A stretch of 50,207 nt of DNA from Catenulispora pinistramenti (lineage in GTDB: Bacteria > Actinomycetota > Actinomycetes > Streptomycetales > Catenulisporaceae). The translations under genes were made by a program, and so were the position numbers. Below are positions 1,557 to 44,278 of this stretch, piece by piece. The stretch lies in NCBI RefSeq assembly GCF_018274385.1, contig NZ_JAAFYZ010000059.1:1-50207 (forward strand), read 5' to 3'. The notes under the pieces are model-generated. The model was not told the origin of the DNA. It worked only from the letters and a program-made list of their open reading frames with translations, and did no database searches. Each line of letters starts with the position of its first letter. The stretch's first letter is position 1.

Positions 1557-1680
1557 AACTGACCACACCCCGGATTTCCGCCGCGTGACCGGAGTCACAC
1601 GGCCGGGTGGTATCGGCGTATCACCGACAAGCCGTAGACAAGATCCATATCAGGGCATTCGACACAGACATCGAGGAGCC

Positions 1681-2943
1681 ATGAAATCGCATGTGAAAGT
1701 CGCCGCCGCGGCCGTCGCCGCCGCCGGTCTGCTCGCGGCCGCGGGCTGTAGCAGCAGCTCCAGCGGCTCCGGGTCGAGTGGCGGTGTGGTGAAGCTGTCC
1801 ATGCTGACCGGGTTCACCGGTCCGGACGGACCCTCCTACCAGGCGCTGGTCTCGGAGTTCAACGCCTCCCACCCGAACATCAAGGTCACCATGGACATCC
1901 AGCCGTGGGACGCGATCGGGCAGAAGCTGCCCGCCGAGTGGGCCACCGGGCAGGGCCCGGATCTGGCCACGCCGAACTTCGACCCCGGCGTGATCTTCAA
2001 CTACATCAAGACCAACTCGGTGCTCCCGCTGGATCCCTCGATCGGCACCGGTGACACGCAGATCAACTCCTCCGCATTCCCGTCCTCGGTGACCAAGGCG
2101 TTCACCGTCAACGGGAAGCTGTACGCGGTCCCGGCGAACCTCGCCACGGTCGCGCTCTACTACAACAAGACGATGTTCACCGCGGCCGGGATCACCGATC
2201 CGCCGAAGACCTCGGACGAGTTCGTCGCGGACGTCAAGAAGCTGACGCTGGGCGGGGCGAACCCGACCCAGTACGGCATCTCGCTGGCCGACCACCAGAC
2301 CATCGAGATGTGGCCGATCCTGCAGTGGATGAACGGCGGCGACATCGTCGGCCCGGACGGCTGCGCGACGGTCAACTCCGCGGCCAGCGTGCAGGCCCTG
2401 TCGACCTGGGCCAACCTGGTGCAGAACCAGCACGTCAGCCCGGTCGGCCAGACCGGCGCCGACGCCGACACGCTGTTCTCGGCGAAGAAGGCGGCGATGG
2501 AGCTGAACGGCCCCTGGGCCGCCGACGGCTTCCGCAAGGCCGGGATCGACCTGGGCATCGCCCCGGTGCCGGTGGGTTCGGCGGGCCCGGTGACCCTGGC
2601 CTCGACCGTGCCGCTGATGATCGCCAAGAACACCAAGCACAAGGACCAGGCGCTGGAGTTCCTGAGCTGGTGGACCGGCAAGACCGCGCAGGCCTCGTTC
2701 TCGAAGAGCTCCGGCTACCCGCCGGCGCGCAGCGACGTCACCGTCTCGGACCCGAACACCGCGGTGTTCGCCCAGGCGCTGCCGACCGCCCGGCTCTACC
2801 TGGCCGGGCTGCCCACCTCCTCGCAGATCGACACCGACGTCTACACGCCGCTGCTGGGCCAGCTGACCCGGGGCGCGGACCCGCAGAAGTCCGCCGACTC
2901 CGCGGCCAAGGCGATCGACCAGCTCACCGGCTGCAAGAGCTGA
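1681..2943 (+). CDS. Sugar ABC transporter substrate-binding lipoprotein
   Basis: This 420-residue family-1 extracellular solute-binding protein is the capture component of the importer encoded next to it. The start chosen is the ATG at 1681, just after GAGGAG. It gives a lipoprotein signal peptide (MKSHVKVAAAAVAAAG) with lipobox LLAAAGC and lipidated Cys23, then a Ser/Gly linker. The remainder reads as a MalE-like two-lobe fold, with segments such as KLYAVPANLATVALYYN and the 'MELNGPWAADGF' region typical of oligosaccharide binders. It is first in an operon with two permeases and a GH51 arabinofuranosidase, which suggests arabino-oligosaccharides as ligand. Family is certain, ligand inferred. 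Confidence 0.94.
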   Translation: MKSHVKVAAAAVAAAGLLAAAGCSSSSSGSGSSGGVVKLSMLTGFTGPDGPSYQALVSEFNASHPNIKVTMDIQPWDAIGQKLPAEWATGQGPDLATPNFDPGVIFNYIKTNSVLPLDPSIGTGDTQINSSAFPSSVTKAFTVNGKLYAVPANLATVALYYNKTMFTAAGITDPPKTSDEFVADVKKLTLGGANPTQYGISLADHQTIEMWPILQWMNGGDIVGPDGCATVNSAASVQALSTWANLVQNQHVSPVGQTGADADTLFSAKKAAMELNGPWAADGFRKAGIDLGIAPVPVGSAGPVTLASTVPLMIAKNTKHKDQALEFLSWWTGKTAQASFSKSSGYPPARSDVTVSDPNTAVFAQALPTARLYLAGLPTSSQIDTDVYTPLLGQLTRGADPQKSADSAAKAIDQLTGCKS

Positions 2944-20517: not shown

Positions 20518-20530
20518 GATCGTCCTCCGG

Positions 20531-23524: not shown

Positions 23525-23627
23525 GACCCTCCTACGCGGATGGCGGACGGTGGGATGACCGTGCGGGGAGGGCGCCCCTTCGGTCCTGAATCGTCAGCCC
23601 TCTGATGGAGGGTGTCAAGAGGGAACC

Positions 23628-23675
23628 GGTTCCGGAACTGGTTTCGGTAGCGGTTCCGAAACCAGTTCCGGAACC
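23628..23675. promoter_or_regulatory. Palindromic control region of the divergent beta-glucan genes
   Basis: GGTTCCGGAACTGGTTTCGG (23628-23647) and its exact reverse complement (23656-23675) flank an 8-base spacer. Overlapping the left arm is a second perfect palindrome, GGAACCGGTTCC (23622-23633). The block sits between two divergent starts (23524 and 23769). A TTGACA box at 23685-23690 follows and could be the -35 element of the rightward gene. Repeated GGAACC/GGTTCC half sites suggest cooperative binding of a dimeric repressor. A transcript hairpin is the alternative reading. Confidence 0.65.
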
Positions 23676-23768
23676 GGATCCGTATTGACAGTCCGTAACA
23701 CGTGCGCCACGTTTAAGGCCCGAGGGCGCTCTCTTCGGTCCGCAATCCCCACACGCCTTGGAGAGCAC

Positions 23769-26033
23769 ATGAGTAATGCTTCGGCCCGGCCACGGGCCGC
23801 TTTGTTCGTCGTTCTCACACTGATGCTGGCCGTCTTGTCCGTGCCGTCATGGGGAGCGAAGGCCGCGTCCGCGGCCAGCTGCGACACCGGAACGAATCTG
23901 GCTTTGAACAAGACGGCCACCGCGTCATCGCTGGAGGGTGCCGGTTATCCGGCGTCCGCGGCGGTGGACGGGAACACCGGGACGCGTTGGTCTTCGCAGT
24001 TCTCTGATCCGCAGTGGTTGGAGGTGGATCTGGGTTCCACGCAGAGCATTTGCGAGGTGGTGTTGAACTGGGAGACCGCCTCCGGCAAGGCCTACCAGAT
24101 CCAGACCTCCACCGACGGCACCACCTGGACCCCCATCTACTCCACGGCCTCAGGGCCCGGCGGCACCGAAACCCTGAACGTCACCGGCAGCGGACGTTAC
24201 ATCCGCATGTACGGCACCGCCCGCAACACCGGCTACGGCTACTCCCTATGGGAATTCAGCGTCTACGGCAGCAACGGCGGTGGAGGCGGCACTCCCCCGC
24301 CGCCGACCGGCGGATCGCTCGGCTCGAACGTGGTCGTGTTCAGCCCGTCGATGACACAGTCCTCGATCCAGGCGACCCTGAACTCGATCTCGGACCAGCA
24401 GGTGCCCAGCGAGTTCGGCACCGGCCGCTACGAGTTGCTGTTCGAGCCCGGGACGTACGGCTCGGCGGCCACCCCGCTGATCTTCACGGTCGGGTACTAC
24501 GAGGCCGTCGCCGGACTCGGCCGGAACCCCGGTGACGTCACCATCAACGGCACCGTCGACTCCTATAACCAGTGCTCCGGCGGCACCTGCAACGCGACCA
24601 CCAACTTCTGGCGCTCGCTGACCAACCTGACGATCAACGTCATGGGGATGTCCGGCTGCCAGAACGGCGACGACTTCTGGGCGGTCTCGCAGGCCGCGCC
24701 GATGCGCCGGGTGCACGTCAACGGCAACCTGAGCCTGATGGACTACTGCGTCGGCGGCCCCGGCTACTCCAGCGGCGGCTTCATCGCCGACTCGCAGTTC
24801 ACCGGCGGCACGGTCACCAACGGCTCGCAGCAGCAGTACATCACCCGGGACTCCGCGCTGGACGGCTGGAGCAACGGGGTGTGGAACCAGGTGTTCTGCG
24901 GCGACCCCGGCGCGCCGGCCCAGAGCTTCGCGTCGAACTCCGGCCTGTCCGGCGGTCCGCCCCCGTACACGACGCTGGCGACCTGCCCGGTCACGCGGGA
25001 GGCGCCGTATCTGTATCAGGACTCTGGCGGGAACTACAACGTGTTCGTGCCGTCCCTGGCCACCAACTCCAGCGGTCCCACCTGGACCGGCGGCCAGACC
25101 CCGGGGACGTCGCTGTCGCTGAACACGTTCTTCGTGGTGCAGCCGTCGGCGACGGTGGACCAGATCAACGCGGCGCTGGCCGCGGGTGACAACCTGCTGT
25201 TCGCCCCGGGTGTCTACAACATCCCGTCGACGATCGACGTCACCAGGCCGGACACCCAGATCGTCGGCCTGGGCTTCGCCACCCTGGTCCCGACCGGCGG
25301 CAACACCACGCTCAGCGTCGCCGACGTCAGCGGCGTGACCGTCAGCGGCCTGATCTTCGACGCCGGCGCGACCACCTCGCCCTCGCTGCTCCAGGTCGGC
25401 ACCGCGGGCTCCACCACGAACCACAGCTCCGACCCGGTGTCGCTGGACGACGTGTTCTTCCGCGTCGGCGGCGCGACCGCGGGTTCGGCGACCACGCCGC
25501 TGGTCGACGACAGCAACGACTCGCTGCTGGACGACGTGTGGATCTGGCGCGCGGACCACGGCGCGGGTGCCGGGACGTGGAGCGGGGACCAGAGTCCGAC
25601 CGGGCTGGTGGTGAACGGTGCCCGCGTGACGTCCTACGGGCTGGCGGTCGAGCACTTCCAGCAGAACGAGGTGGACTGGAACGGCCAGAGCGGAACGGTG
25701 GTCTTCTTCCAGAACGAGAACCCGTACGAGGTCCCCAACCAGGCCGCGTGGATGGCTTCGGCGTCGCAGAAGGGGTATCCGGCGCTGTTCGTGCCCAATT
25801 CGGTCACTTCCTTCCAGGGCTACGGCTTGGGCAGCTACAGCTACTTCGACCAGGGCGCGGACATCCACAACGCGATGGCGTTCCAGGTGCCGCAGACCTC
25901 CGGGGTGCAGCTGCACGACCTGCTGACGGTGTTCCTGAACGGCTCGGGCGGGATCGACTCGGTGGTCAACGGGACCGGGAAGGCGGTGAGCTCGGCGTTC
26001 GGTGGGCCCTCTGACGTGGTCAGCTATCCCTGA
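23769..26033 (+). CDS. Secreted F5/8 module plus double beta-helix protein (GH55-like architecture)
   Basis: This 754-residue protein has a signal peptide (about 1-34), an F5/8 module (about 38-168) identical in most residues to that of the divergent GH16 enzyme, and a Gly/Pro linker. Two right-handed beta-helix halves follow. The first opens with NVVVFSPSMTQSSIQATL and the second with FFVVQPSATVDQINAAL; both use 'LLFEPGTY'/'LLFAPGVY' pectate-lyase-like turns. Two tandem beta-helices recall GH55 exo-beta-1,3-glucanases, and the neighbours are beta-1,3-glucanases. I know related actinomycete proteins only as 'coagulation factor 5/8 domain' proteins of unproven activity. GGAGAG lies before the ATG at 23769. 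Confidence 0.8.
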   Translation: MSNASARPRAALFVVLTLMLAVLSVPSWGAKAASAASCDTGTNLALNKTATASSLEGAGYPASAAVDGNTGTRWSSQFSDPQWLEVDLGSTQSICEVVLNWETASGKAYQIQTSTDGTTWTPIYSTASGPGGTETLNVTGSGRYIRMYGTARNTGYGYSLWEFSVYGSNGGGGGTPPPPTGGSLGSNVVVFSPSMTQSSIQATLNSISDQQVPSEFGTGRYELLFEPGTYGSAATPLIFTVGYYEAVAGLGRNPGDVTINGTVDSYNQCSGGTCNATTNFWRSLTNLTINVMGMSGCQNGDDFWAVSQAAPMRRVHVNGNLSLMDYCVGGPGYSSGGFIADSQFTGGTVTNGSQQQYITRDSALDGWSNGVWNQVFCGDPGAPAQSFASNSGLSGGPPPYTTLATCPVTREAPYLYQDSGGNYNVFVPSLATNSSGPTWTGGQTPGTSLSLNTFFVVQPSATVDQINAALAAGDNLLFAPGVYNIPSTIDVTRPDTQIVGLGFATLVPTGGNTTLSVADVSGVTVSGLIFDAGATTSPSLLQVGTAGSTTNHSSDPVSLDDVFFRVGGATAGSATTPLVDDSNDSLLDDVWIWRADHGAGAGTWSGDQSPTGLVVNGARVTSYGLAVEHFQQNEVDWNGQSGTVVFFQNENPYEVPNQAAWMASASQKGYPALFVPNSVTSFQGYGLGSYSYFDQGADIHNAMAFQVPQTSGVQLHDLLTVFLNGSGGIDSVVNGTGKAVSSAFGGPSDVVSYP
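23932..24278 (+). repeat. Right arm of the 347-bp perfect inverted repeat
   Basis: Exact reverse complement of 23021-23367, separated from it by 564 bp. It covers the central and C-terminal part of the F5/8 module. The signal peptides and the first 15 or so codons of the module outside the arm have diverged. Confidence 0.93.
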
Positions 26034-28398: not shown

Positions 28399-31300
28399 CA
28401 ACACCCACTCCTGATTCGCCCCGGCGTTGCAGTCGTAGATGACCAGCTGCGTACCGGAGCCGCCGGAGGCGTTGTCGTCCAGGCACTTGCCGGACTGCGG
28501 ATTGACCAGTTCGCCGTTCGGCTGCGGTGACCAGTTCTGCGCCCCGGAGTTGTTGCACGTGTACAGCTGAACCGGAGTCGAGTTCCCCGTGTTGCCGCCC
28601 TGCACGTCCAGGCACTTGCCCAGCGTCTGGAGCGTGCCGTTGCTCTCGACCGTCCACTGCTGGGCGTTCGTCTGGTCGCACGTGTAGACCTGCACCGGGT
28701 TGGCATCCGTGGTGACGGCGTTCCGGTCGTCCAAGCACAAGCCCTGATACCCGGTCACCTGTCCTGTCGGCGGGCTCCCGGAAGCGATCGCGACTGTATT
28801 CGTGCTCGAAGTCCCGGCACCGGTCGTCACCGAGATCGTGGCGGTGGTTCCGGGCGTGACGGCCCACTCGTTGTTCGAGCCGGACGGCTGCGGGACCGTG
28901 AACGTGATGGCGCTGTCGCTCCAGCTGTTCACGGTGAAGCCGGCCAGGTCGCCCGGGGCACCCCAGTTGGTGCCGTTGTCGCTGAACGTCAGGTAGCCGC
29001 TGCCCTGCGAAGCGCCGAAGCCGCTGCCGGTGACCGTGACCTGCTGCCCGGCCGCGGCGGTGGCCGGGGAGCTGGAGGTGATGGTCGGGGTGCTCGGCTC
29101 CGAGCGCTGCACGGGAGTGCCGCCGGTCTGGGTGACCGTGAGGCTGGACGAGGTCGCCACCGCGCCGAGCGGCACCTGCAAGGTGTTGGTGGCGCTGTCG
29201 TAGCTCCACTGCGACGACGACAGCGTCTGCCCGTTGATCTGCACCGAGCCCGGCTGCGACTCGTCGACCAGGGCGAGCGTGTAGTTCCGGCTGCTCGGCG
29301 CCCCTGAGTAGGAGCCGGTGGCCGGCGAGATCGTCAGCGTGGAGCTCGCGCCGGAGGCGTTCTCGGTGTAGGCGATGGGGGTCTGCGTCGACTGCCCCGA
29401 CTGGTAGCCGAGGCCGGTCCCGGCGTCGTCGTACAGCGAGGAGGAGCCGTTCGCCCCGGCGTGCACCTGCAAGGTGATCGGTGCGGAGCCGGCGCTGGTC
29501 GCCTGTCCGTTCGAGGGCTGCAACGCGATGATGCCGCCCTCCTTGACGAACACCGGCATCCGGCTGGTCGGCGTGTCAATGCTCTGTGTCCCCGGCCCGG
29601 TGAACGTGGCGCCGGTGAAGTAGTCCTGCCAGGTGCCCGGCGGGAACCAGACCTGCGCCGCGACGTCGGCGCCGGGCTGGGTGACCGGTGCGACGAGCAC
29701 GTTGGTTCCGAGCGTGTACTCGGTCGGGTTGGTGTAGGCGGCGGACTGGCCGGGATAGTTCAGATACAGCGCCTGCGTCATCGGGATGCCGGTGCTGCTC
29801 GACTGCGCGGCCAGCGTGTACAGGTACGGCACCAGTTCCTCGCGCAGTTGCATGAAGTTGTCGCCGACCGCCTGCGTCGCGGCGTCGTACTCCCACGGGA
29901 GCCGTGCGTTCTGGCCCCGGTCCACGCCGTTCGAGTGCTCCCGCATGATCGGCTGGAACGTGCCCAGTTGCAGCCATCGCAGATACAGATCGTCCGGAAC
30001 GTTGGCGCTGCCGGTGTTGTCCCCCAGGAAGCTCCCGATGTCGTCGCTGACGTAGGGCTCGCCGATGCTCCCCTCGTCCTGCGACAGCTGCGCCTCGCTG
30101 GCCAGCTCGTTCCACGTGCCCTGGGTGTCGCCGGTGAAGGCGATCGCCGAGCGGTGGTCGGCCCAGGGGCCGGCGGCGTAGGCGCCGGCCTGCGAGTTCT
30201 GGTTCGAGGCTCCGACCCGTGCCAGGTCGAAGCCGCGGTCGCCGTTGTTCACCATCTGCCGCGCGGTCAGGTAGTTGATCCAGGCGTCGGGGGTGACGCC
30301 GGGCTGGGAGAACACGCCGCTGTTGTCGCAGCACCAGTCGAGCCAGGTCATCCCGACAGCGTTCTGAGTCGGGTCGGCGGTGGCGAAGTACGACTCGGCC
30401 TGGGCCACGTTGCCCCAGTCCCAGATCGCGCAGGGCCCGCCGTTGGAACAGCTGGACTGGACCGAGAGCGTGTTGCCGGCGATGTCCTGGGCCTGGGAGT
30501 AGAGCGGGTCGTTCGTCGCGATCGCGGAGTGCACGTTGAGCGCGACGTCGATGCCCTGCGCCTTGGCCCAGTCGGTGAAGGCGGTCGGGTCGGGGAACAG
30601 CGAGGAGTTCCACTCCCAGCCGTTCCAGGTGTTCGGGCTCTTCCAGTCGGTGTCGACCGACAGGTCGTCCAGCGAGACGCCGTTGGCCTGGAACTGCGGC
30701 AAGATCGTGCTCTGATAATCAGAGGTCGAATAACCGTAGTAGCGGGAGAACCAGTTCCCGAACACCGACTCGTCGGGCAGCGTCGAAGGCCCGGTCAGCT
30801 TGGCCAGGTCACCCAGCGCGCCGGTGAAGTTCTGCCCGTAGCCGAACAGGTAGCCGTCCTGGACGTCTCCGGTCGGGCGGTTCGCCACCCAGCCGTCCGA
30901 GGTCCAGACCGAGGTCTGGGAGTCGTCCAGCAGGTACCAGCCGGACTGGTCGAGCAGGCCGGAGGCCTCCTTCGGGATGTTCGCGGTGCAGGCGTCGCCG
31001 CTCTGTCCGCTGGCGCAGGTCGGGCCGCCGGAGTAGGAGCCGTTGGCCGAGTCGTAGGAGCGGATGTAGCCGCCGAGCGGGTTGGCCGGGGCGAACGGGG
31101 CCGCGGTCGCGCCGGGTGCGGTCACCGAGATGTCGTCGACGTTCACGTTGCAGCTGTCGCCGCTGTCGCAGTTCATCGCGACGGTGTCGGTGCCGCCGGC
31201 CGGCGTCACCGGGACCGTGACCGTCGACCAGTCGTCCCAGCTCGCCGTGGCCGGGAAGCTGACCTGGGTGGTGACGCCGTTGACGACCAGGTCCTCGGTC

Positions 31301-32028
31301 CGGGTCTCGGTGTTGCCGTCACCGCCCTTGTTGTTGGCGTACCGGATGGTGACGTTCGCCGCGCCGGCCGTGGTGCCCAGTACCCGCCACGACGCGTTCG
31401 CCCCAGTGGCGGTCAGGCCCGCGACGAACCCCGGCGGGCTCTGATAGCCGTTGTGGTTGTTGGCGATCGACGCGCCGCCGCTCAGCGCGGCGGCGCCGGC
31501 CTGGCAGGACTGGCCGAACGTGCACTCCCCGCCCCACGTCGGCGTGACGTTCGCGGACGCCCCCGGAGGCAGCGCACCGAGCAACCGCATCTTCGTGTTG
31601 ACCGCCGAGAAGGGGCCGGAGCCGACCTGGTACGTCAGCGTCATCGCGCTGGTGGTGATGGTCAGCTGGCCGTTGGCCACGTTGCTGGTGAAGGACGGGA
31701 CCGTGAAGTCGCGATCCATGATGTCGAACGTCGGATCGTCCAGGAAGCTGCCGGTCGGCGAGTATTCCATCCGGACCACGCCGGGCGTCAGTACTTCGAA
31801 GCGCGCGTCGCCCTCGACCACAGTGGCCTGCGACGCGGCCTTGCCGTTCGCCATGTTGATCGGGTTGGACAGGTTGACCGGGGACGAATCCGAGGTCGCC
31901 GTCTGCGCGGCGGCCGGGATGACCGCGGCGATCAAAGCCGCGGAGATCAGTCCGCTGATAAGCGGCAGGCGGCGCTTCACGGCGCGCTTCGCGACGTGCT
32001 TCGTGACGTGCTTCGTGATCCGCTTCAT
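28393..32028 (-). CDS. Secreted GH31 alpha-glycosidase with internal CBM, TIG and ricin lectin domains
   Basis: About 1211 residues. A basic start (MKRITKHVTKHVAKRAVKRR) and signal helix lead to an N-terminal beta domain. A CBM35/6-like module sits at about 186-306, with the calcium-type end NVDDISV. The GH31 barrel (about 320-700) has Asp564 in TWLDWCCDN as expected nucleophile and Asp634 in FTGDTQGTW as acid/base. C-terminal beta domains, an IPT/TIG domain (about 980-1073) and one three-repeat ricin trefoil (about 1086-1211) follow. The ATG at 32028 overlaps the GH3 stop (ATGA) and is preferred to the GTG at 32040. Alpha-xylosidase or alpha-glucosidase activity is plausible; pairing with GH3 hints at xyloglucan. 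Confidence 0.88.
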   Translation of the reverse strand: MKRITKHVTKHVAKRAVKRRLPLISGLISAALIAAVIPAAAQTATSDSSPVNLSNPINMANGKAASQATVVEGDARFEVLTPGVVRMEYSPTGSFLDDPTFDIMDRDFTVPSFTSNVANGQLTITTSAMTLTYQVGSGPFSAVNTKMRLLGALPPGASANVTPTWGGECTFGQSCQAGAAALSGGASIANNHNGYQSPPGFVAGLTATGANASWRVLGTTAGAANVTIRYANNKGGDGNTETRTEDLVVNGVTTQVSFPATASWDDWSTVTVPVTPAGGTDTVAMNCDSGDSCNVNVDDISVTAPGATAAPFAPANPLGGYIRSYDSANGSYSGGPTCASGQSGDACTANIPKEASGLLDQSGWYLLDDSQTSVWTSDGWVANRPTGDVQDGYLFGYGQNFTGALGDLAKLTGPSTLPDESVFGNWFSRYYGYSTSDYQSTILPQFQANGVSLDDLSVDTDWKSPNTWNGWEWNSSLFPDPTAFTDWAKAQGIDVALNVHSAIATNDPLYSQAQDIAGNTLSVQSSCSNGGPCAIWDWGNVAQAESYFATADPTQNAVGMTWLDWCCDNSGVFSQPGVTPDAWINYLTARQMVNNGDRGFDLARVGASNQNSQAGAYAAGPWADHRSAIAFTGDTQGTWNELASEAQLSQDEGSIGEPYVSDDIGSFLGDNTGSANVPDDLYLRWLQLGTFQPIMREHSNGVDRGQNARLPWEYDAATQAVGDNFMQLREELVPYLYTLAAQSSSTGIPMTQALYLNYPGQSAAYTNPTEYTLGTNVLVAPVTQPGADVAAQVWFPPGTWQDYFTGATFTGPGTQSIDTPTSRMPVFVKEGGIIALQPSNGQATSAGSAPITLQVHAGANGSSSLYDDAGTGLGYQSGQSTQTPIAYTENASGASSTLTISPATGSYSGAPSSRNYTLALVDESQPGSVQINGQTLSSSQWSYDSATNTLQVPLGAVATSSSLTVTQTGGTPVQRSEPSTPTITSSSPATAAAGQQVTVTGSGFGASQGSGYLTFSDNGTNWGAPGDLAGFTVNSWSDSAITFTVPQPSGSNNEWAVTPGTTATISVTTGAGTSSTNTVAIASGSPPTGQVTGYQGLCLDDRNAVTTDANPVQVYTCDQTNAQQWTVESNGTLQTLGKCLDVQGGNTGNSTPVQLYTCNNSGAQNWSPQPNGELVNPQSGKCLDDNASGGSGTQLVIYDCNAGANQEWVLP

Positions 32029-35000
32029 GACAGCGTCCACTTCTGGTTCGCGGCGTCGGTGCAGCTATAGATCTGCAACTGCGTACCCGATCCGCCGGAG
32101 CCGGTGTCGTCGAGGCACTTGCCGGAGTTGGGGTTGAGCAGTTCGCCGTTGCTCTGCGGCTGCCAGACCTGCGCGACGGTGTTGTTGCAGGTGTAGAGCT
32201 GGACGAGGGTGCCGTTCGCGGTACCGGCGGCGTTCACGTCCAGGCACTTGCCCAGAGCCTGCAAGGTGCCATTCGATGCGACGGTCCACTGCTGGGCGTT
32301 GGTGCCGTTGCAGGTGTAGACCTGCACCGGAGTGCCGTCGGCACTGCTGGCGCTACGGACGTCGACACACAGACCCTGGTAGCCGGTGATCGGACCGGTT
32401 CCGGTACCCGTCGAGGAGCCCGCCGGGGAGATCCACTCCTGATTCGGCGCGCCGGAGCAGTCCCAGATCTGGACCTTCGTACCGGACAGACCGGAGCCGG
32501 TGTCGTCCAGGCAGCGACCGGACTGCGGGTTACGCAGCGTGCCGTTGGACTGCGGCTGCCACTGCTGCGCACCGGTGTTGTTGCAGGTGTACAGATCGAC
32601 CGCGGTCCCGTTCGCGGTGCCACCGGCAGCGACGTCCAGGCACTTGCCCAGCGAACGGACCGTCCCGTCGGATTCCTCAGTCCACTGCTGGGAGTTGGTG
32701 CCGTTGCAGGTGTAGACCTCGACCGCCGTGCCGTCGGCGTTGTTGGCCGCGGTCACGTCCAAACAAAGGCCCTGATAGCCGACCAGCGGCGTCGTCGGGA
32801 CCCCGGCCGTCGAGGGTGCGACGGTCCACAGGAACGTGGTGGTCGCCTGCGCGCCGTCGGCGTCCTTGGCGGTCACGCTAACGGTGCTCGTGCCGGCGGT
32901 CGTCGGCGTGCCGGTGATCTGGCCGGCGGCGGAGATCGACAGGCCGGCGGGCAGGCCGGTCGCGGTGAACACAGGGGTCTGACCCGCGGTCGAGTCGCCG
33001 GCGGTCACCTGCACCGAGGTCGCGGCACCGGCCAGGCCTTCCTGCGGGCCCGGGCTGGTGACGCTGACCGGCTGGCCGAGCTGGTTCGCGGCCACGGAGA
33101 GCGTGCCGGACAACCCGAGCGCCGAGGCGGAGTCGGCGTCGCCGACCGCGATGCCGTAACTGCCGGTGCTCGTGGCCCAGTTGTTTGTATTGGTGCTCCA
33201 GTAGCGCAGGTTCTGCTCGGCGACCGGGAAGGACACCGTCTGGCTCTGGCCGGGCTGAAGGTCGACCCGCGCGAAGCCCTCAAGCTGGCGCGGCGGCTGG
33301 CCCGAGGCGGCCGGGTCGGTGACGTACAACTGCGCGACATCGGCGCCTTCGCGGCTGCCGGTGTTGGTCACGGTGGCGGTGACCGTCGCCGCGCCGCCCT
33401 GCGGCAGGGAACTGATGTGCAGGTTCGAGTAGGAGAAGCTGGTGTAGGACAGGCCGTAGCCGAACGGGAACAACGGTGTCAGGCCCTTGCTGTCATACCA
33501 GCGATAGCCGACGTCCACCCCCTCGGAGTACTGCACCTGCCCGTTGACGCCGGGCCACTGCGCACTGGTGCTCGCCGGGACCTGGGACAGCGAGGTCGGG
33601 AACGTCACCGGCAGGTGGCCGGAGGGGTTGGTGGTGCCGAACAGGACGTTCGCGATCGCCGTGCCGTCACTCTGCCCCGGGTACCAGGCTTCGAGCACAC
33701 CCTTGACCGAGGACAGCCACGGCATCGTGACCGCCGAGCCGGTGTTCAGGACCACGATGGTGTTCGGGTTCGCGGCGGCCACCGCGGAGATCAGCGCGTT
33801 GTCCGAGGAGGACAGATCGATGCCGGACAGGTCGCTGCCCTCGGACTCGGCGTTGCTGACGAAGACCACTGCGACGCTGGAGTTTGCGGCCAGCGAGGCG
33901 GCCGAGCCGCTGTTGGTGCCGTCGTCGTAGGCCACGGTCGTACCGGCGGGCGCCGCACTGGTGATGCCCTGCAACGGGGTCACCGTGCCGCTGGAGTTGA
34001 CGCTCGCGCTACCGCCGCCGGCGCTCTGCACGCTGGTCGAGGCGTCGGCGCCGATGACGGCGATCGAGCTGTTGCCCGAGCCGAGCGGCAGGACGTTACC
34101 GGAATTCTTCAGCAACACAGTGCCCTGCTCCGCCAGGTGCTCCCCGGTCGCCTGGTCGGCGGCGTTGGTCGCGGTAGCGGCCGGTGAGCCCACGGGCGGC
34201 CTGTCGAACAGCCCGAAGGCGAACTCCTGGGTGAGGATCCGGGAGACCGAGGTGTCGATCGCCGCCTGCGACACCTGGCCGGCGTTGACGGCCGATATCA
34301 GGGAGCTGCCGAAGTTGGTGTTGTCACCCGGCATGTCCTGGTCCAGGCCGGCGTTCACGGCCGGTGCGCCGGAGTGCGTGGCGCCCCAGTCGGAGGTGAC
34401 GAAGCCGGAGAAGCCGAACTGCTGGCGTAGCGCGGCGTTCAGGATATCAGGATCCTGACAGGCATAGGTGCCGTTGATGGTGCTGTAGGAGCACATCACC
34501 GACGACGCGGCGCCCTGCTGCACCGAAGCCTGGAAGGCGGGCAGGTAGATCTCCTGCAACGTCTGGTCCGAGGCGATCACGTTGTCCGACGGGGTGTTGC
34601 GGTTCGTCTCCTGGTTGTACGCGGCCAGGTGCTTCACCTGCGCCATCGTCCCGGTGGACTGCACGCCCCGGATGTCGGCCGCGCCCATCTGACCATTGAG
34701 GTAGGGGTCTTCGCCGACCGACTCGAAGGCCCGGCCCCAACGCGGGTCGCGGACGATGTTGATGGTCGGACCCAGATCGACGGTCGTGCCCTTGGCCGCC
34801 TGTTCGGCACCGATCACCTGGCCGAAGCTCTGCTCGGCGGAGGTGTCGAAGGTCGCTGCGACATCGACCGGCGCGGGCAGCTGCGTGACGTTGTTCATGC
34901 CGTCACCGGGACCGGCCGGGCCGTCCTCCAGGTTCATCGCCGGGATGCACAGCGAGCCGATGGCCGGGGTGAACCCGACGTAGCTGGAGCCGCCGATCCC

Positions 35001-35261: not shown

Positions 35262-35366
35262 GGTGCCTCCGGGGGCATACGGAAACGGTGGCCGGTGCGG
35301 GAGGTGACGCCGCGCGGGGTCGAGCCGCGGCCGGGGACGGCGGGAGGGGCCACCGTCGGCAGGGGT

Positions 35367-35385
35367 TTGTTGTAGCCACCAACAA
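35367..35385. promoter_or_regulatory. Candidate operator upstream of the GH3-GH31 operon
   Basis: TTGTTG (35367-35372) and CAACAA (35380-35385) form an inverted repeat with a 7-base spacer, about 105 bp before the GH3 start, in a patch poorer in GC than its surroundings. Evidence is symmetry and position only. Confidence 0.35.
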
Positions 35386-35468
35386 CCGGTGCGTAACGCG
35401 GATGAAACACCTGCGGCGTGCGACTGTCAATACCTCACGAAACCTGCGGACCAGCCCAATTGCGGCCC

Positions 35469-35825
35469 TCACCAGCGCTTATGTGGAGAAGGCCCCTGAG
35501 ATTGAAACGGTCCTATTTGAGACCGGCGATGAAGGATTTCCTCGACGGTCTCCTCCACGCTCAGCTCCGAAGTGTCCAGCCACAGCCCGATCCGGGGCGT
35601 CCGCTCGCGCAGGTGGGCGTCAAGCTCCGACACCCCTTCATCGCCCGGCTTATAGGCGACCTTCCCTCGCGCCGCCCGCCGCGCCTCATCGCGCTCCCGC
35701 ACCACATCAGCGCGCGGCACGAGAACGACCACGTGGCACGGCCGGGTACGAATCGCCGCGACCATCTCCGCCAAGTAGGGGCCGAGGATCACGTCCTGCA
35801 AGACAACGGTAAAGCCCGGGTAGTT
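35469..35825 (-). pseudogene. C-terminal relic of an AAA/P-loop phosphotransferase-like kinase
   Basis: The segment FTVVLQDVILGPYLAEMV continues through a kinase-like HVVVLVPRADVVRERDEARR and TPRIGLWLDTSELSVEETV. These match the C-terminal half of small (about 170-residue) P-loop kinase-like proteins of actinomycetes. The N-terminal half with the GxxGxGKT nucleotide loop is absent: family-like sequence ends at about 35825 and runs into unrelated low-complexity DNA next to the large palindrome. Without the P-loop it cannot bind ATP in the usual way, so I read it as a 5'-truncated relic. Confidence 0.7.
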
Positions 35826-35880
35826 TCGCGACGTGCCGGTCGCCGAATGGGATCGGTTCCCGGCTGGTGCTGCGGGATTC

Positions 35881-35934
35881 TGGAACTGGAACTGGAACTG
35901 GAACTGGAAGTGGAAGTGGAAGTGGAAGTGGAAG
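35881..35934. repeat. Hexanucleotide microsatellite
   Basis: Nine uninterrupted 6-bp units: TGGAAC four times then TGGAAG five times. It lies between the truncated kinase relic and the left end of the large palindrome. No reading frame across it has normal codon bias. Confidence 0.95.
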
Positions 35935-35970
35935 TGGGCGGGGGTGGAGTTTGCAGGGGGGTGAAGTTTG

Positions 35971-37345
35971 CGGGCCGGGTTGCGGTTGAGGTGTGGGTTT
36001 CAAAGCTTTTTACGGCCTTCGGTAATAGTTGTGCCGGTTCGGGGTTCGGGTCGGCGGGTGTGTTTGTCGGCTGCCGGTTTACGCGTTCACAACCCCGCCC
36101 CACCTCAGGCCTCTTCAACTCCAGCAAGTCAGAACAAGGACACAGGCCAGATCAACAGCACAGGCAAGATCAAGAGCCACAAGCAAGGTCAAGGTCAAGG
36201 GCTGTGATGAAGGGCCGGGCCTCCGGCGGGCCTCGGCAACCTCAGGGAAACTAGCGCGGTTCCCTAGGGTGGCCGGGTCAGTCTCAGCGGCTGCGGCCTG
36301 TGAGGTGGTGCGGTCCGTTCCCCACGGTCGCGTCGTCAGCCCGGGGGGTACAGCACCGGTGTCCGGGGGTAAAGTCCGCGCGCGGCGGTCGAGCATTTGA
36401 CCTGCGGTTTCGTTCAGCGCGAACTTGACCCCCGGCCACCGGCACTGTAGGCGAAGCCCTGCCGACGCGACCGAGGGGAACGAACCGAAAACCAGCCAGA
36501 GAAGTGCAAAACGGGGGGTGCGGGTACCGGCAACTCGGCGAGCTCGGCCGCCGGTGAGGGTGCTGGCAACGCGGCAGTCCCGAGGTGCGCATTCTGGGCT
36601 GGCCGGTGCGGGCGCAGGTGTGGGCGCGGGCTCGCCTAGCCGCCAAGATCGCTGCCGCCGGATGACAGACAGACCTGACCACCAAGATGGCTGCCGCCGG
36701 ATGACAGATCGGTCTGGGCGCCAAGACATGCCGCGCCTACCGCACCGGGCATGTTCTCGACCAACTGACCACCGGCCCGCCGCCACACCCTCACCGGCAG
36801 CCGCATCACCGACCCGCGTTGTCGTTCCCTGCGATTGCTATTCTTCCGGCTGGTTTTCGGTTCGTTCCCCTCGGTCGCGTCGGCAGGGCTTCGCCTACAG
36901 TGCCGGTGGCCGGGGGTCAAGTTCGCGCCATACGAAACCGCCGCCCACCTGCAGGTCCGCAGCGCGCGGACTTTACCCCCGGACACCGGTGCTGTACCCC
37001 CCGGGCTGACGACGCGACCGAGGGGAACGAACCGCACCACCCCACAAACCGCAGCCGCTGAGACTGACTCGGCCACCCTAGGGAACCGCGCTAGTTTCCC
37101 TGAGGTTGCCGAGGCCCGCCGGAGGCCCGGCCCTTCACCATCGCCTTTGACTTTGATCTTGCTCTGGCCCTTTGCCCTTGCTCTGACTTGCTGGAGTTGA
37201 AGAGGCCTGAGGTGGGGCGGGGTCGTGAACGCGAAAACCGGCAGCCGACAAACACACCCACCGACCCGAACCCCGAACCGGCACAACTATGACCGAAGGC
37301 CGTAAAAATAGCCTTTCAACCCACAACCCAACCGCAACCCGGCCC
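35971..37345. repeat. 1.4-kb imperfect palindrome built from nested inverted repeats
   Basis: The left arm (about 35971-36501) and right arm (about 36849-37345) are reverse complements, with over 90% identity in the stretches I aligned; an A-rich insertion near 36125-36200 is the main difference. Each arm holds a 63-bp unit in both orientations: 36317-36379 (+), 36419-36481 (-), 36864-36926 (+) and 36966-37028 (-), all starting GTTCCCC and containing CGGTCGCGTCG and CCGGGGGT. Both arms contain the 35-bp segment also found at 1-35. No transposase or other believable gene lies inside, and open frames here are artefacts of repeat composition. It could be a non-autonomous mobile element, a structured RNA locus or a nested repeat cluster. 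Confidence 0.85.
36643..36708. repeat. Direct repeat in the centre of the palindrome
   Basis: A 27-bp unit beginning CCAAGAT and ending GCCGCCGGATGACAGA occurs at 36643-36669 and 36682-36708 with one difference, giving a 39-bp period. A truncated CCAAGA start follows at 36721. It lies in the non-repeated centre of the palindrome. Confidence 0.8.
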
Positions 37346-37535
37346 TCTACCGCATCCAGCCAGCAATCTGGCGAAACCGCCACGCCGACGACCTCCGCCT
37401 AAGCCAAATCATCACCAGGGCAAACGTTGACTGATGCGGCACTGACTCCGGGCCGCGCTCCGGCTTGAGACCATGCTCAGCCTCGCCGCCCGCTCCAGCC
37501 CGCGCTCCGCCTCATGCCCCCGGCTCAGTTTCCCC
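37346..37535. other. Non-coding stretch between the palindrome and the ROK gene
   Basis: I see no gene here. It is C-rich with weak codon bias. No convincing hairpin terminator for the leftward ROK gene could be found by eye. Confidence 0.5.
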
Positions 37536-38804
37536 TCAAGCCGACAGCTCCCCCGACTCCCCACCGCTCATCATCGCCAGCGTCTGCGGCGCGCGCGCCA
37601 GCACCCGTGCCGCGGCGCCGCGTACCTCGGCGCTGGAGCCGAGGCGGCCGGGGACCACTGTGACCTGGCGTGCGGCCGAGGGCAGGGCGTAGCGGGCGAT
37701 GCCGTGGCGGATCGGGGTGAACAGGGCTTCGCCGAGGGCTGCCAGGTCGCCGCCGACCACAATCAGGCGGGGGTTCATCAGGGTGATGACTGAGGCCAGG
37801 GCGCGGCCCACCGCCTCGCCGGTGTCCTCGATGACGCGGGCGGTGCCCGGGGTGCCCGCGGCCAGGAGGTCGGGGAGGTCGGCCGGGGTTACCGGCTCGC
37901 CCCAGCTTTCCTGGAGCAGTCGGGCCACGGCGACGGGGCTGGCGATGGTTTCCAGGCAGCCGCGGTTGCCGCAGCGGCAGACCAGGCCGTCGGGGGTGGC
38001 CGGGAGGTGGCCGATCTCGCCGGCCAGGCCGCCGGCGCCGAGTTGGAGGCGGCCGGCGGCGATGACGCCGGCGCCGATGCCGGCGGACAGGCGGATGTAG
38101 ACCATGTCCTGGCTGTCGCGGCCGGCGCCGTACATGTGCTCGGCCAGGGCGCCGGCGTTGGCGTCGTTGGTGAGCTCGATGGTCAGGCCGGTGCGGCGCT
38201 CCAGTTCCGGGCCGGGGCGGATGCCGGTCCAGCCGGGCATGATGCCCTCGGCGGACAGCGCGCCGTCGGCGTCGACCGGGGCCGCGATGCCGACGCCCAG
38301 GCCCAGGACGCGTTCGCGCGCGACGCCGTTCTCGGCGATGGCGCGCGCGACCAGGTCCGCGGCGAGGTCCAGGGTCTCGTGCGGCGCGCGGTCGACCTCC
38401 TTGGCCTCGACGGTCTCCCACAACGGCGTGCCGTGCACGTCGCACAAGGCGACCCGGACGTGTGCGTGCCCGATGTCCACGCCGATCGCGTAGACGACCG
38501 ACCGGTTCAGCGCCAACGGCAGCGCGGGCCGGCCCATCGAGCGGTTCTCCGCCTCGGCCGAACCGTTCTCCTCCAGCACCAGCCCGGCCGCGATCAGGTC
38601 CGCGACCAGAACGGACACCGTCGCCCGGGACAGCCCGGTGAGCCGGACCAGCTCCGGCCGGCTGGTCGTGCTGCTGGCGAGCAGGACCTGCAGGACGCGT
38701 AAGCGGCCCTCTTCTCGCAGATTAGGCGGCGCGGCGACGATGCCCTCCTCAAATCGATCCGGATGGCACTCATGGTACGACCGCGCCGGTGGCAGCGAAT
38801 ACAT
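37536..38804 (-). CDS. ROK-family transcriptional repressor
   Basis: About 422 residues. The N-terminal winged helix includes LQVLLASSTTSRPELVRLTG and SRATVSVLVADLIAAGLV. The sugar-kinase-like ROK domain starts at AIGVDIGHAHVRVALCDVHG. The zinc site is intact: GEIGHLPA followed by CRCGNRGCLET. It diverges from the GH95-like/SGNH operon, its likely target, with a sugar as inducer. The start is uncertain. The ATG at 38804 (MYSLPPARSYHEC) lacks a ribosome site. A strong GAGGAGG lies about 70 bp further into the gene but is followed only by ATC and GTC codons, not a normal start. Confidence 0.9.
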   Translation of the reverse strand: MYSLPPARSYHECHPDRFEEGIVAAPPNLREEGRLRVLQVLLASSTTSRPELVRLTGLSRATVSVLVADLIAAGLVLEENGSAEAENRSMGRPALPLALNRSVVYAIGVDIGHAHVRVALCDVHGTPLWETVEAKEVDRAPHETLDLAADLVARAIAENGVARERVLGLGVGIAAPVDADGALSAEGIMPGWTGIRPGPELERRTGLTIELTNDANAGALAEHMYGAGRDSQDMVYIRLSAGIGAGVIAAGRLQLGAGGLAGEIGHLPATPDGLVCRCGNRGCLETIASPVAVARLLQESWGEPVTPADLPDLLAAGTPGTARVIEDTGEAVGRALASVITLMNPRLIVVGGDLAALGEALFTPIRHGIARYALPSAARQVTVVPGRLGSSAEVRGAAARVLARAPQTLAMMSGGESGELSA

Positions 38805-42100: not shown

Positions 42101-42612
42101 TGACCGCGGGCAAGTCGGTCGCGTCGGTGACGCTGCCCGGCGGTGGCGGGCTGGCCGTCGGCACCCCGTCGATCCACGTCTTCGCGCTGGCCGCCTCCGG
42201 CTCGGGCACCACGTCCGGCTCGCTGATCAGCCTTCGGGCGCATGCCAACGGCGACATCGTCACCGCCGACAACGCCGGAGCCGATCCGCTGATCGCCAAC
42301 CGGACCTCCGTCGGCACCTGGGAACAGTTCGACCTCATCGACAACCCCGACGGGAGTGTCAGCCTTCGAGCTCACGCCAACGGGGACATCGTCACCGCGG
42401 ACAACGCCGGAGCCGATCCGCTGATCGCCAACCGGACGGCGATCGGGCCCTGGGAATCCTTCGACCTGATCACCAACTCCGACGGCAGCGTCAGCTTCCG
42501 GGCCCATGCCAACGGCGACATCGTCACCGCCGACAACGCCGGCGCCGCACCGCTGATCGCGAACCGCACCGCGATCGGGCCGTGGGAATCGTTCGATCTC
42601 ATCCACGACTGA
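39151..42612 (+). CDS. Secreted GH95-like alpha-L-fucosidase-type glycosidase with fascin-like tail
   Basis: This 1153-residue protein has a signal peptide (about 1-35, cleavage near ASA-A) and an N-terminal beta-supersandwich with the SLPLGNGSLGVAEW hallmark (about 71-84). An (alpha/alpha)6 catalytic region (about 297-697) contains YMENLRTLYLYFEAATMHAG and NAHETQWAVTDPTTDIAASQ. A beta-sandwich end and an additional beta domain (about 804-1010) follow, then three 44-residue fascin-like units (about 1027-1153). The layout fits GH95, with alpha-L-fucoside or alpha-L-galactoside as likely substrate; exact specificity is open. The GTG at 39151 is the start. The SGNH esterase follows after 10 bp. 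Confidence 0.83.
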   Translation: MSSRNLRPRLSAAAAAVLIATPLGIAGGLAPPASAASATTAWQNGAFQLDTGGVVSRSDVVLGQPNTATTQSLPLGNGSLGVAEWAANGFTAQLNRSDTMPDRLSPGQVNIPGLTAMTSASNFTGSLDLYNGVLDESGGGMTLKAWVPAGKDELVVDVTGANPGTRQTAMLSLWSGRTPSTAASGAVGSLAQTWVDNSQTGNSGQTFGAMAAVTAGGQDVSASVVDSTQVQVGFNPNADGSFRVIVASPQWTGGDPTSTANSVIGGDATAGTSSLLGTQSAWWNNFWANSGLIEMTSADGTAQYMENLRTLYLYFEAATMHAGTYPGSQAGVADLFNFSQDKQDWYPAGYWLWNLRGQIAANISSGDFALNTPIFDMYLNDLPNIESWTSAQMGGKPGACVPETMRFNGNGFYNGGNNTQNASCAQASSPSYNALTLTSGAEIALWVWQQYQATGDVGFLQKYYPILQQTSTFLLNYQSVGSDNFLHATANAHETQWAVTDPTTDIAASQALFTATMNAATKLNTDSGLASQLRTALGQIEPYARTDAGKTQLLNPQPTSASAAASVDAQGTDIIADSYQPSAKPQNGENIGLEPVWPYGLIGDDTVVNGDDLTALAKRTYTDRVNKTNPDWNFDAVQAARLGLGSEVAADLNSVTQGYQAYISGLANLFNGNTGDEPYIEQSSTVATAVDEALVQDYDGTLRLAPAWPSGWDASGTVSVRGNTKVDVQVEGGTLATAAIQAGSTQTMTVRNPWPGKQAEVVNGSTGAVVVAATTNGTLSVPVTAGSTYLVEQPSAPTTSLPFAQVTGTKATAAKHLGKVQIGLDPAVSFPNLAASFNNVGITADTNTAPGNFDGNGASLSETALTNAGAGPGASVTSSGVTFTFPNAAAGSNDNTVAEGQTIDTSGSGTLGFLVSADYGPATGSGVITYTDGSTQSYSLTVPDWFSTTPPAGGALAISSAYQNRQGNTTYSGSGNIFSVPVTLTAGKSVASVTLPGGGGLAVGTPSIHVFALAASGSGTTSGSLISLRAHANGDIVTADNAGADPLIANRTSVGTWEQFDLIDNPDGSVSLRAHANGDIVTADNAGADPLIANRTAIGPWESFDLITNSDGSVSFRAHANGDIVTADNAGAAPLIANRTAIGPWESFDLIHD
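42229..42609 (+). repeat. Triple 132-bp repeat encoding the fascin-like tail of the GH95-like enzyme
   Basis: Units begin at 42229, 42361 and 42493, exactly 132 bp (44 codons) apart. Each encodes SxRAHANGDIVTADNAG, then PLIANRT and a WExFDLI end. Three such units make one beta-trefoil. Confidence 0.93.
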
Positions 42613-42622
42613 GGACGCCTTC

Positions 42623-44278
42623 ATGAGAACCCGTATCGGCTGGGCCGTCGCCGCCTTCCTGACCGCGCTGGCGACGGCCGTGGCGCCGGCGGCGTCCGGC
42701 TCCGCGGCCGCGCACGCCCAGCTCACCCATCCGACCACCGCGACCGCGGCGACCGCAGCGGCGGCGGCCGCCACCGGGCCGTGGACCGGCACGTGGGCGG
42801 TGTCCCCACAGAGCGGCGGCGCCGCCTTCAACCAGCAGACGCTGCGCCAGATCGTGCACACCAGCATCGGCGGGACCTCGGCCCGGGTGCAGATCTCCAA
42901 CGCCTTCGGCTCGCAGCCGCTGGCGATCGCCGACGTCCACATCGCGCAGCGGTCCTCCGGCGCGGGCATTGTCGCCGGGACCGACCAGATCGTCACGTTC
43001 GGCGGCCAGAGCTCGACGACCATCGCGGCCGGCGCGCTGGCCGTCAGCGACCCGATCGCGTTCGCGGTGCCGGCCCTGTCCGATGTCGCGGTCAGCATCT
43101 ATCTGCCGCAGGGCACCGGCGCCTCGACCTACCACCAGCAGGGTTCTGCGACCAACTACATCGCGTCCGGCGATGTGAGCGGCAGCCAGACTCTGACGAA
43201 TCCGCAGACCACCGGCAGCTACTTCTTCCTGACCAACCTCGACGTGCAGAACGCGGCGTCTCAGGGTGCTGTGGTCACCCTCGGCGCCTCGATCACCGAC
43301 GGCTACGCGTCCTCGTTCGACGCCGACCGGCGCTGGCCGAACGATCTGGCCGTGCGGCTGGCGCAGACCGGCCACGTGGTCGGCGTGCTGAATCAGGGGA
43401 TCAGCGGCAACCGGCTGCTGGTCGACGGGGCCGGGCCCAGCGCGTTGCACCGCTTCGCGCAGGACGTGCTGGCCCAGCCCGGCGTCCGGTGGGTGATCTT
43501 CGCCGTCGACCCGATCAACGACCTGGGCTCGACCAGCCCGCCGCCCAGTTCCGATGAGCTCATCGCGGGCTTGCAGCAGCTGATCGCGGCGGCGCACCAG
43601 AACGGCGTGCGGTTCCTGTGCTCGACGTTGACCCCGTATCAGGGTGCCGGCTACTGGACCCAGCAGGGCGAGACGGCGCGCGAGGCCTTCAACGCCTACG
43701 TGCGCAGCGCGGGCAACGGCTGCGACGCCGTGGTCGACCAGGACGCCGCGACCCATGACCCGGCCAACCCGACGATGTACCTGCCGGCCTACGACAGTGG
43801 CGACCACCTGCACCCGAACGACGCCGGGCTGCGGGCGATCGCGAACGCGGTGAACCTGGCGCTGTTCGGCGCCCCGGCCTCGACGCCGGTCGTGAGCCTG
43901 CGGGCGCACGCCAACGGCGACATCGTGACCGCCGACAACGCCGGAGCCGCACCGCTCATCGCCAACCGCACGGCGATCGGACCGTGGGAGACGTTCGATC
44001 TGCTCAGCAACGCCGACGGCAGCGTGAGCCTGCGGGCGCACGCGAACGGCGACATCGTCAGCGCGGACAACGCGGGGTCCTCGCCGCTGATCGCGAACCG
44101 GACGGCGATCGGGCCGTGGGAATCGTTCGACCTGCTGAACAACGCGGATGGGAGTGTCAGCTTTCGAGCTCACGCCAACGGGAACATCGTGACCGCCGAC
44201 AACGCCGGATCGTCACCGCTGATCGCCGACCGGACGGCGATCGGCGGCTGGGAGTCCTTCGACCTCATCCCGGACTGA
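42623..44278 (+). CDS. Secreted SGNH/GDSL hydrolase with fascin-like tail
   Basis: This 551-residue protein has a signal peptide (about 1-31). A beta-sandwich lead domain (about 52-205) is followed by an SGNH hydrolase domain (about 215-418). Ser223 in TLGASITDGY is the nucleophile, the block III Asn is in GISGNRLL, and Asp394/His397 in DSGDHLHPND complete the catalytic set. Three 44-residue fascin-like units form the tail (about 425-551). Such enzymes deacetylate or de-esterify polysaccharides, and coupling 10 bp behind the GH95-like enzyme suggests they work on the same decorated glycan. The 3' end overlaps the opposing acetyltransferase gene by 14 bases. Confidence 0.9.
   Translation: MRTRIGWAVAAFLTALATAVAPAASGSAAAHAQLTHPTTATAATAAAAAATGPWTGTWAVSPQSGGAAFNQQTLRQIVHTSIGGTSARVQISNAFGSQPLAIADVHIAQRSSGAGIVAGTDQIVTFGGQSSTTIAAGALAVSDPIAFAVPALSDVAVSIYLPQGTGASTYHQQGSATNYIASGDVSGSQTLTNPQTTGSYFFLTNLDVQNAASQGAVVTLGASITDGYASSFDADRRWPNDLAVRLAQTGHVVGVLNQGISGNRLLVDGAGPSALHRFAQDVLAQPGVRWVIFAVDPINDLGSTSPPPSSDELIAGLQQLIAAAHQNGVRFLCSTLTPYQGAGYWTQQGETAREAFNAYVRSAGNGCDAVVDQDAATHDPANPTMYLPAYDSGDHLHPNDAGLRAIANAVNLALFGAPASTPVVSLRAHANGDIVTADNAGAAPLIANRTAIGPWETFDLLSNADGSVSLRAHANGDIVSADNAGSSPLIANRTAIGPWESFDLLNNADGSVSFRAHANGNIVTADNAGSSPLIADRTAIGGWESFDLIPD
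43895..44275 (+). repeat. Triple 132-bp repeat encoding the fascin-like tail of the SGNH hydrolase
   Basis: Units begin at 43895, 44027 and 44159, again exactly 132 bp apart. They are close relatives of the three units in the preceding gene (42229-42609), giving six copies of one module in 2 kb. Confidence 0.93.

Follow-up and report, generated by a model that had tools for sequence, protein, structure and literature searches.

What is a 1.4-kb nested palindrome with no protein gene inside it doing in the genome of Catenulispora pinistramenti? The window analysed here is the whole of one contig (C544; 50,207 nucleotides, its first base being the contig end) of an 11.46-Mb assembly that is estimated to be 99.95% complete but is fragmented into 671 contigs. 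The original prediction, made from the letters alone, placed the palindrome at 35971-37345 and offered three readings: a non-autonomous element mobilised in trans, a structured RNA or a recombination hotspot. We conclude, with a probability of about 0.75, that the palindrome is a decayed, non-autonomous mobile element, that many of its copies in this lineage end in IS630-family sequence, and that the transposase of this family most likely moved them in trans through cut-and-paste insertion at the TA within CTAG.

Inverted-repeat comparison established that the nested palindrome is real. It consists of one inverted arm pair of 337 nt (36164-36500/36845-37181, 90% identity), a second of 140 nt (36007-36146/37169-37308, 95%) and a weaker outermost pair (35948-36011/37306-37369, 73%). 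Each arm contains an inner hairpin, in which 36311-36381 pairs with 36417-36487 on the left (79%) and 36858-36941 with 36951-37034 on the right (77%), and it is through these two hairpins that the 63-bp unit occurs in four copies of alternating orientation, just as predicted. The region 36300-36500 folds beyond chance as RNA (-121.1 kcal/mol, z = -7.0), and the reverse strand of the left hairpin folds better than the forward strand (-130.6 kcal/mol, z = -9.5). The predicted extent was too short, since the unit runs from about 35817 to 37442. Its parts and neighbours, with the close relative C. pinisilvae NH11 (G008) as reference, are as follows.

35532-35816, minus strand: what is left of a P-loop (AAA_33) gene interrupted here by the element and intact in C. 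pinisilvae (85.6% DNA identity to G008; AAA_33 E 3.3e-11 for the G008 protein).
35817-37442, unstranded: whole element copy, worn, with outer shell, two inverted arms, centre and right terminal repeat; the left edge is the first base past homology to the intact G008 gene, which ends at 35816, and the right edge is the end of the terminal repeat.
35817-35963, unstranded: left outer shell, starting CGGGTAGTTTCGCGACGTGCCGG, with about 23 terminal bases missing, from a by-eye comparison with the subterminal part of another copy (L064).
35881-35934, plus strand: degenerate TGGAAC/TGGAAG hexamer array within the left shell, from inspection of the sequence.
35964-36500, plus strand: left long arm, with conserved blocks 35964-36150 and 36184-36500 (76-arm alignment and inverted repeats).
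36311-36487, minus strand: left inner hairpin, with 71-nt stem halves and a 35-nt variable loop; minus would be the folded strand according to the wobble bias (inverted repeats, folding and pair tables).
36501-36834, unstranded: centre, variable and non-palindromic (arm alignment).
36835-37345, minus strand: right long arm, an inverted copy of the left arm (inverted repeats and arm alignment).
36858-37034, plus strand: right inner hairpin; the wobble bias favours the plus strand (inverted repeats and pair tables).
37363-37428, plus strand: relic of an IS630-family transposase gene, residues 367-388 (77% identity, E 9.5e-4).
37419-37442, minus strand: right IS630-type terminal repeat, decayed, with TCAGTCAAC for TCAGGCAAC and TCAG in place of the CTAG of intact ends (terminal-motif comparison).
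1-35, plus strand: truncated arm fragment of another element copy, at the contig edge (exact match to an arm segment).

The segment at 1-35 matches 37094-37128 exactly and 36217-36251 in inverted orientation; the recurrence that had been taken to indicate a dispersed family is thus an exact copy, and the family is dispersed, although the site itself is a truncated arm at the contig edge. The claim that no transposase is present holds for an intact gene and fails for the 22-residue relic. A home-made codon-score gene finder put no open reading frame in the window copy, in keeping with the absence of a protein gene that had been proposed. No terminal repeat was found on the side of the left shell. 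Elsewhere in the window, the stretches 19604-24269, 42227-44278 and 28405-32781 are self-similar blocks (67-87% identity, direct or inverted repeats); a gene for a family-3 glycoside hydrolase that also carries ricin-type lectin domains overlaps the last of them.

A unit confined to the window would speak against a mobile element, and it is not confined. A 27-nt core gave 72 forward and 72 reverse matches in the host genome with at most three mismatches (control 0), and, because each element carries one core per arm on opposite strands, this corresponds to about 72 elements. A 201-bp query likewise gave at least 80 matches in the host genome (the best 40 of 258 candidates were scored). We read 41 loci (the window and 40 others), which yielded 76 arms, 73 of them long enough for hairpin tables. 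The arms align over 35964-36150 and 36184-36570, while the centre and the outer edges vary; in the copies viewed by eye, the two sides of the centre are of two different sequence types. The cores lie 392-551 apart in 34 of the 35 two-armed loci and 1032 apart in one (L089). The remaining six loci have a single arm, and in five of these the contig stops within about 520 bases of the core. Element copies coincide with many contig ends of the assembly. An autonomous copy with a transposase between its arms was sought in all 41 loci and found in none. The only centre gene, the one locus of the 41 with an open reading frame, is L089 on contig C643, where a GNAT acetyltransferase frame (1283-1732, plus strand; PF00583, E 4e-15) stands between the arms and may be a captured passenger. 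This gene was the sole reason for considering an integron attC site, which would have R/L core boxes and an integron integrase. A simple transposon with fixed ends throughout is ruled out by the presence of at least two edge types. At L061, on contig C19, the sequence replacing the left outer arm is 98.8% identical to a copy in the C. pinisilvae locus L126, and is perhaps an insertion sequence in or beside the palindrome.

The edges of the copies point to the likely mover. The title of a 1991 paper by Tenzen and Ohtsubo, cited in PMC2170065, names CTAG as the preferred target. The better-kept element ends read CTAG followed by TGCYGTRTCAGGCAACGTTTGCC, in inverted order, and the terminal motif TCAGGCAACNTTTGCC, with at most one mismatch, occurs 43 + 45 times in the host genome and 8 + 4 times in C. 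pinisilvae (control 0). At L064 the termini are CTAG followed by TACCGCATCAGGCAACC on the left and, read inward, CTAG followed by TGCCGCATCAGGCAACG on the right; at L094 the right terminus is CTAG followed by TGCCGTGTCAGGCAACG, and the left has CTAG without a recognisable repeat. Among 53 distinct ends found by the motif (72 partly overlapping loci), the flank is exactly CTAG in 33 and not exactly so in 20, a ratio that favours CTAG somewhat because the four flanking letters were included loosely in the search string, with two substitutions allowed in all, and that includes at least two ends of a broken IS630 on contig C642. Those terminal repeats also flank a 389-aa IS630 transposase in the Catenulispora genome G009 (NF033545, E 1e-44; DDE_3, E 2.3e-12), and the string CTAGTGCCG[CT]ATCAGGCAACGTT is common to the elements and to the IS630-family insertion sequence. 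It is this G009 protein that the window relic matches, side by side as IWRNRHADDLRLSQIITRANV / IWRNRHADDTRLRQIVARANV. Sequence of the parent is therefore present, as 22 residues of the transposase C-terminus in the window and 35 at contig C315, at the outer edge only and not in the arms. Since the same terminal repeats flank an IS630-family transposase and a transposase relic lies in the window, the outer shell is, judged by sequence, an IS630 derivative.

Empty sites in C. pinisilvae show what was inserted. From 22 elements we took 110-nt flank pieces; 15 of these elements could be placed in C. pinisilvae at 91% identity or more, and for them we compared the regions. The element is absent from C. 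pinisilvae at five sites and present in both species at two (L073 and L085); at the other eight only one flank aligned, three of these being short stretches beside a contig end. The five empty sites, L062, L064, L065, L093 and L094, leave 25, -7, 38, 81 and -4 bp, respectively, between the aligned flanks. L064 (gcgCTAGcgc) and L094 are cut exactly at CTAG, with inserts of 1628 and 1583 bp, and the remaining three are not cleanly cut; the inserts at L065 and L093 (2424 and 2068 bp) include other sequence too. IS630-family elements are described in one source as inserting into TA and duplicating it (PMC2170065). Duplication of TA within the CTAG target is seen at L064 and L094, and no clean target duplication is visible at the decayed window copy. 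The window site is also without an element in C. pinisilvae, where it spans 361 bp against 1715 bp here. A one-armed copy with orthologous flanks in the two species (L084 on contig C47, and L125 in C. pinisilvae) is an old inherited remnant.

Taken with the IS630-type ends, the empty sites indicate that copies moved as non-autonomous IS630 derivatives, and the mobility shell of the element is well supported. The inverted-order terminal repeats, the CTAG at most recognisable ends, the empty sites in a relative and the transposase relic at the edge together argue for trans-mobilisation by an IS630-type transposase, and so for the mobile-element option of the original prediction. No intact cognate transposase was found in the host assembly, which has broken pieces (C642) and distant or partial matches; the search of C. 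pinisilvae gave one C-terminal scrap and one distant partial match, and a PDB search with the transposase gave nothing.

The second suggestion, gene conversion or recombination, was borne out in an unexpected form, as the copies form unlinked mosaics genome-wide and arms belonging to one element show no special likeness. Among 73 arms there are 70 distinct hairpin loops, which are combinations of a few short alleles, and none of 32 elements has the same loop in both arms (0.06 expected by chance given the diversity). Across 77 biallelic sites in the host genome, mean r2 is 0.213 for sites less than 5 bp apart, drops to 0.026 at 20-40 bp and reaches 0.017 at 40-80 bp, against a background of about 0.014, and all four gametes are found in 0.88-0.94 of site pairs beyond 20 bp. 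Beyond about 40 bp, alleles are thus unlinked; wrongly joined contigs might obscure linkage at distances above the read length, but hardly below 40 bp. In C. pinisilvae (58 arms) the decay is slower, with r2 of 0.385 below 5 bp, 0.155 at 20-40, 0.059 at 80-160 and 0.069 beyond (background 0.018). Homogenisation of the two arms within one element of the host genome was considered and rejected: arms of the same element stand at the 0.505 quantile of all arms over 36204-36490. By region, they stand at 0.521 in the hairpin, 0.429 in the outer block and 0.736, that is, less alike, just inside the hairpin; all of these comparisons use 29 to 35 pairs. Arms of the same element share 0.646 of alleles against 0.643 +- 0.011 in permuted pairs, and in C. 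pinisilvae 0.675 against 0.642 +- 0.031 (15 pairs). The genomes G005 and G007 have few copies of this type. The G005 copy has nearly identical arms, with 548 matches against 14 mismatches and 18 gaps. In the G007 copy, whose right arm is without the hairpin, the near-identity covers less sequence, with 280 matches against 8 mismatches and a single gap. We read these patterns as short-tract exchange that runs among copies in genomes rich in them and between arms in genomes with few.

Set against this shuffling is the constancy of the hairpin stem. Within the host genome, variation falls chiefly in the loop and a few unpaired columns, with the stem near-invariant (tables of 75 rows, in which the two window arms are entered twice), and paired columns are almost always Watson-Crick in a table of 92 rows, made up of the 73 arms and 19 alignment rows that repeat four of our own arms; the host-genome line of that table omits two arms of L100. 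In the 19-row alignment 98.4% of cells pair, and nine pairs changed on both sides against 4.2 +- 1.1 in shuffles (none of 500 as high), with no one-sided changes by standard pair; further pair types show no excess (10 against 10.4). The hairpins fall into two subfamilies. In an alignment fitted to the model itself and reduced from 76 matches to 45, one strand per place (one row partial), 29 of 53 stem pairs keep their consensus, 17 have both partners replaced and 7 have a gap or do not pair in the second subfamily. The suggested selection for pairing is accordingly supported by the near-invariant stem and by double-sided changes between species, with the caveat that template switching during replication can, according to one source, also yield double-sided stem changes (PMC8794818). 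In one copy, L266 (G003:C1:3475226-3475406), one stem half contains 26 nt that, judged by eye, exactly complement the other half. Four sister copies lack this match, which looks like an overwriting by template switching; yet one column keeps a T.C mismatch in 37 of 45 rows. Non-Watson-Crick cells on the modelled strand comprise 39 A.C and 4 G.T, in 15 and 3 pair columns, respectively, and an excess of A.C on that strand means G.U on the strand read outward from the centre. The rows are related to each other, so that this wobble bias towards the outward-read strand is suggestive. A structured RNA, the second of the original readings, is possible.

The hairpin reaches further than the IS630-type ends. 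A covariance model built from 19 hairpin sequences matches all ten Catenulispora genomes, with at least 150 matches in the host genome, 142 in G008, 42 in G002, 23 in G009, 17 in G005, 8 each in G003 and G004, 7 in G007, 2 in G006 and 1 in G001, some places being counted on both strands. An order-wide search of 99 genomes, with stricter filters that lost the single G001 match and that weak relatives could escape, matched nine, all Catenulispora, and none of 89 others. At the DNA level (60 genomes, E at most 0.001) nine genomes matched, eight of them Catenulispora, including the host, and one from another family, G022, whose 51-bp match (E 6.4e-4) is weak and was taken as chance; G003 and G001 are matched by the covariance model only. 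A conserved 24-nt pattern was found in at least 49 stretches, which among the matches listed belong to C. pinisilvae NH11, Catenulispora MAGs and one Catenulisporales MAG. The plasmid collection gave no blastn match to the element and viral contigs no exact match to the 24-nt pattern; titles and opening parts of abstracts in the open-licence literature on Catenulispora held nothing on such repeats. One hairpin, L185/L289 (G005:C19:152780-152969), has a score (97.5 bits) between those of the two subfamilies and apparently no second arm.

Could the palindrome, then, be a mobile element in its own right, with its own mover, which captured IS630 ends later in the lineage of the host and C. pinisilvae? 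This is compatible with the preferred explanation, and we entertain it tentatively. Besides the genus-wide hairpin, it is favoured by loci in G003 (a single contig of 10,467,782 bases, which we take to be C. acidiphila DSM 44928) and G005: L288, L290, L275 and L298 are sequence-diverged nested palindromes, about 1.15 kb long and with some 480-500 bp in each arm, they have the outer motif TGCGGTTNGTTTGTGGGTTTT...AAGCTTTTTACGGCTTCG in common with our element, and no IS630 end was found in the 45 bp outside them. Nor was one found in the 130 bp outside each arm of the G005 and G007 copies close to the host type. In the host genome itself there are two edge types, the terminal repeat being recognisable in 29 of 68 arm flanks and in none of the other 39 within 330 bp, and many flanks beginning at another shared edge (TTCGGGGTTCGG). 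These flanks and the G005 and G007 copies mean that IS630 leaves the spread of the older core unexplained. Against a separate mover stand the lack of any autonomous version in the centres of the 41 loci of the host genome and the presence of IS630 transposase matches in all ten genomes of the genus, so that ends elsewhere may have decayed. Either the core predates the IS630 shell or such decay has occurred; the core looks older. A bolder reading, which we regard as doubtful, takes the hairpin as the real unit, a selfish strand as old as the genus, structured as RNA or single-stranded DNA and read from the centre outward, that would double itself into nested palindromes, recombine near linkage equilibrium and borrow the ends of whichever insertion sequence is active, here IS630.

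Where the copies sit raises another alternative, that they are structured RNAs, transcription terminators or insulators useful to the host, placed at gene 3' ends because they function there and kept by host selection. With the codon-score gene finder, 49 of 68 flanking genes at the 41 loci point toward the element, and flanking pairs are 11 times convergent, 14 times codirectional and twice divergent; the near-invariant stem and the strand bias, with its better-folding reverse strand, would fit as well. Yet insertion into CTAG, a sequence that C-TAG stop codons supply, could produce the 3'-end bias with no function involved: where an end is flanked by xTAG, the TAG is the in-frame stop of a coding-looking frame in 17 of 41 cases, and CTAG is rare, 45 occurrences being expected in the window from trinucleotides and 8 found, of which the 5 inside the element stand out. 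The strand favoured by the wobbles is, moreover, the outward-read one and not that transcribed from convergent neighbours. No promoter-like site was found in the element, and hairpins followed by a T run number 2, where shuffles give 2.1; both lie in the outer arms and none at the inner hairpins. An Rfam scan of 35300-37700 returned two chance-level matches far below gathering (29.4 against 90 bits and 15.9 against 42 bits), and sites differ between close relatives. We therefore consider a host function unlikely. Far less probable still is a REP/BIME or REPIN system of a tyrosine (RAYT) transposase, which would account for high copy number, palindromes, alternating orientation and proximity to 3' ends, but not for a 177-nt hairpin, a 1.6-kb unit and IS630-type ends. 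Equally hard to credit is an artefact of a short-read assembly. With 671 contigs and many copies at contig ends, arms could be wrongly joined beyond read length; against this, the same architecture occurs in single-contig G003 and in the 70-contig assemblies G005 and G007, the scrambling acts below 40 bp, which we take as shorter than the reads, and mosaics recur with slower decay in C. pinisilvae, although that assembly is also of short-read type.

Under the trans-mobilised IS630 explanation, an IS630 (Tc1/mariner-like) transposase would act on the element, which would land at gene 3' ends because CTAG is rare and often part of a C-TAG stop. Copies would then swap short tracts by gene conversion and hairpin template switching, giving scrambled loops and arms, and the stem may be kept because it acts in single-stranded form, as folded RNA or DNA read from the centre outward, serving either the upkeep of the element or some effect on the host. 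About 72 gene-less 1.6-kb palindromes in one bacterial chromosome act like a recombining population. With loops and arms shuffled at tens of bases and a stem that hardly varies, they let ectopic gene conversion and template switching be studied in bacteria as a natural experiment, and the hairpin, found across the genus and marked by strand-biased pairing, has a role that can be tested directly.

Our verdict is that an older nested palindrome, specific to the genus, forms the core of an unusually large non-autonomous element of IS630 type. The strand-biased wobble and the unlinked mosaics are what most deserves specialist attention. Bacterial MITEs linked to IS630/Tc1 include Correia/NEMIS, RUP and Nezha, and our element resembles these in being gene-less, in sharing its terminal inverted repeats with an IS630-family insertion sequence, in its TA/CTAG target, in its high copy number and in its mostly intergenic location. 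It thereby qualifies as a MITE in the wide sense. MITEs in the strict sense measure hundreds of base pairs at most, a size exceeded by the inserts at both clean sites. The Correia element is given as 204 bp in one source (PMC10969869), whereas ours is about 1.6 kb and nearly all nested palindrome. It further differs from IS630-derived MITEs in having a core in common with palindromes at which no IS630 ends were seen. Eukaryotic foldback elements (FB, Galileo) have long inverted arms, a variable centre and exchange between arms. These features recur here; unlike Galileo, however, our element is bacterial, has IS630-like rather than P-superfamily ends and carries a further hairpin in each arm. 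With REP, BIME and REPIN sequences it shares dispersed extragenic palindromes of alternating orientation, and it differs in size, in tag and, as far as the ends show, in transposase class, REPs being described in one source as 20-40 bp with a GTAG or CGTC tag (PMC3733652). Finally, a double-sided stem change in one event, as L266 appears to show, resembles quasipalindrome template switching as one source presents it (PMC8794818), although that is a mutational mechanism and not an element, and some T.C mismatch columns persist here in nearly all rows.
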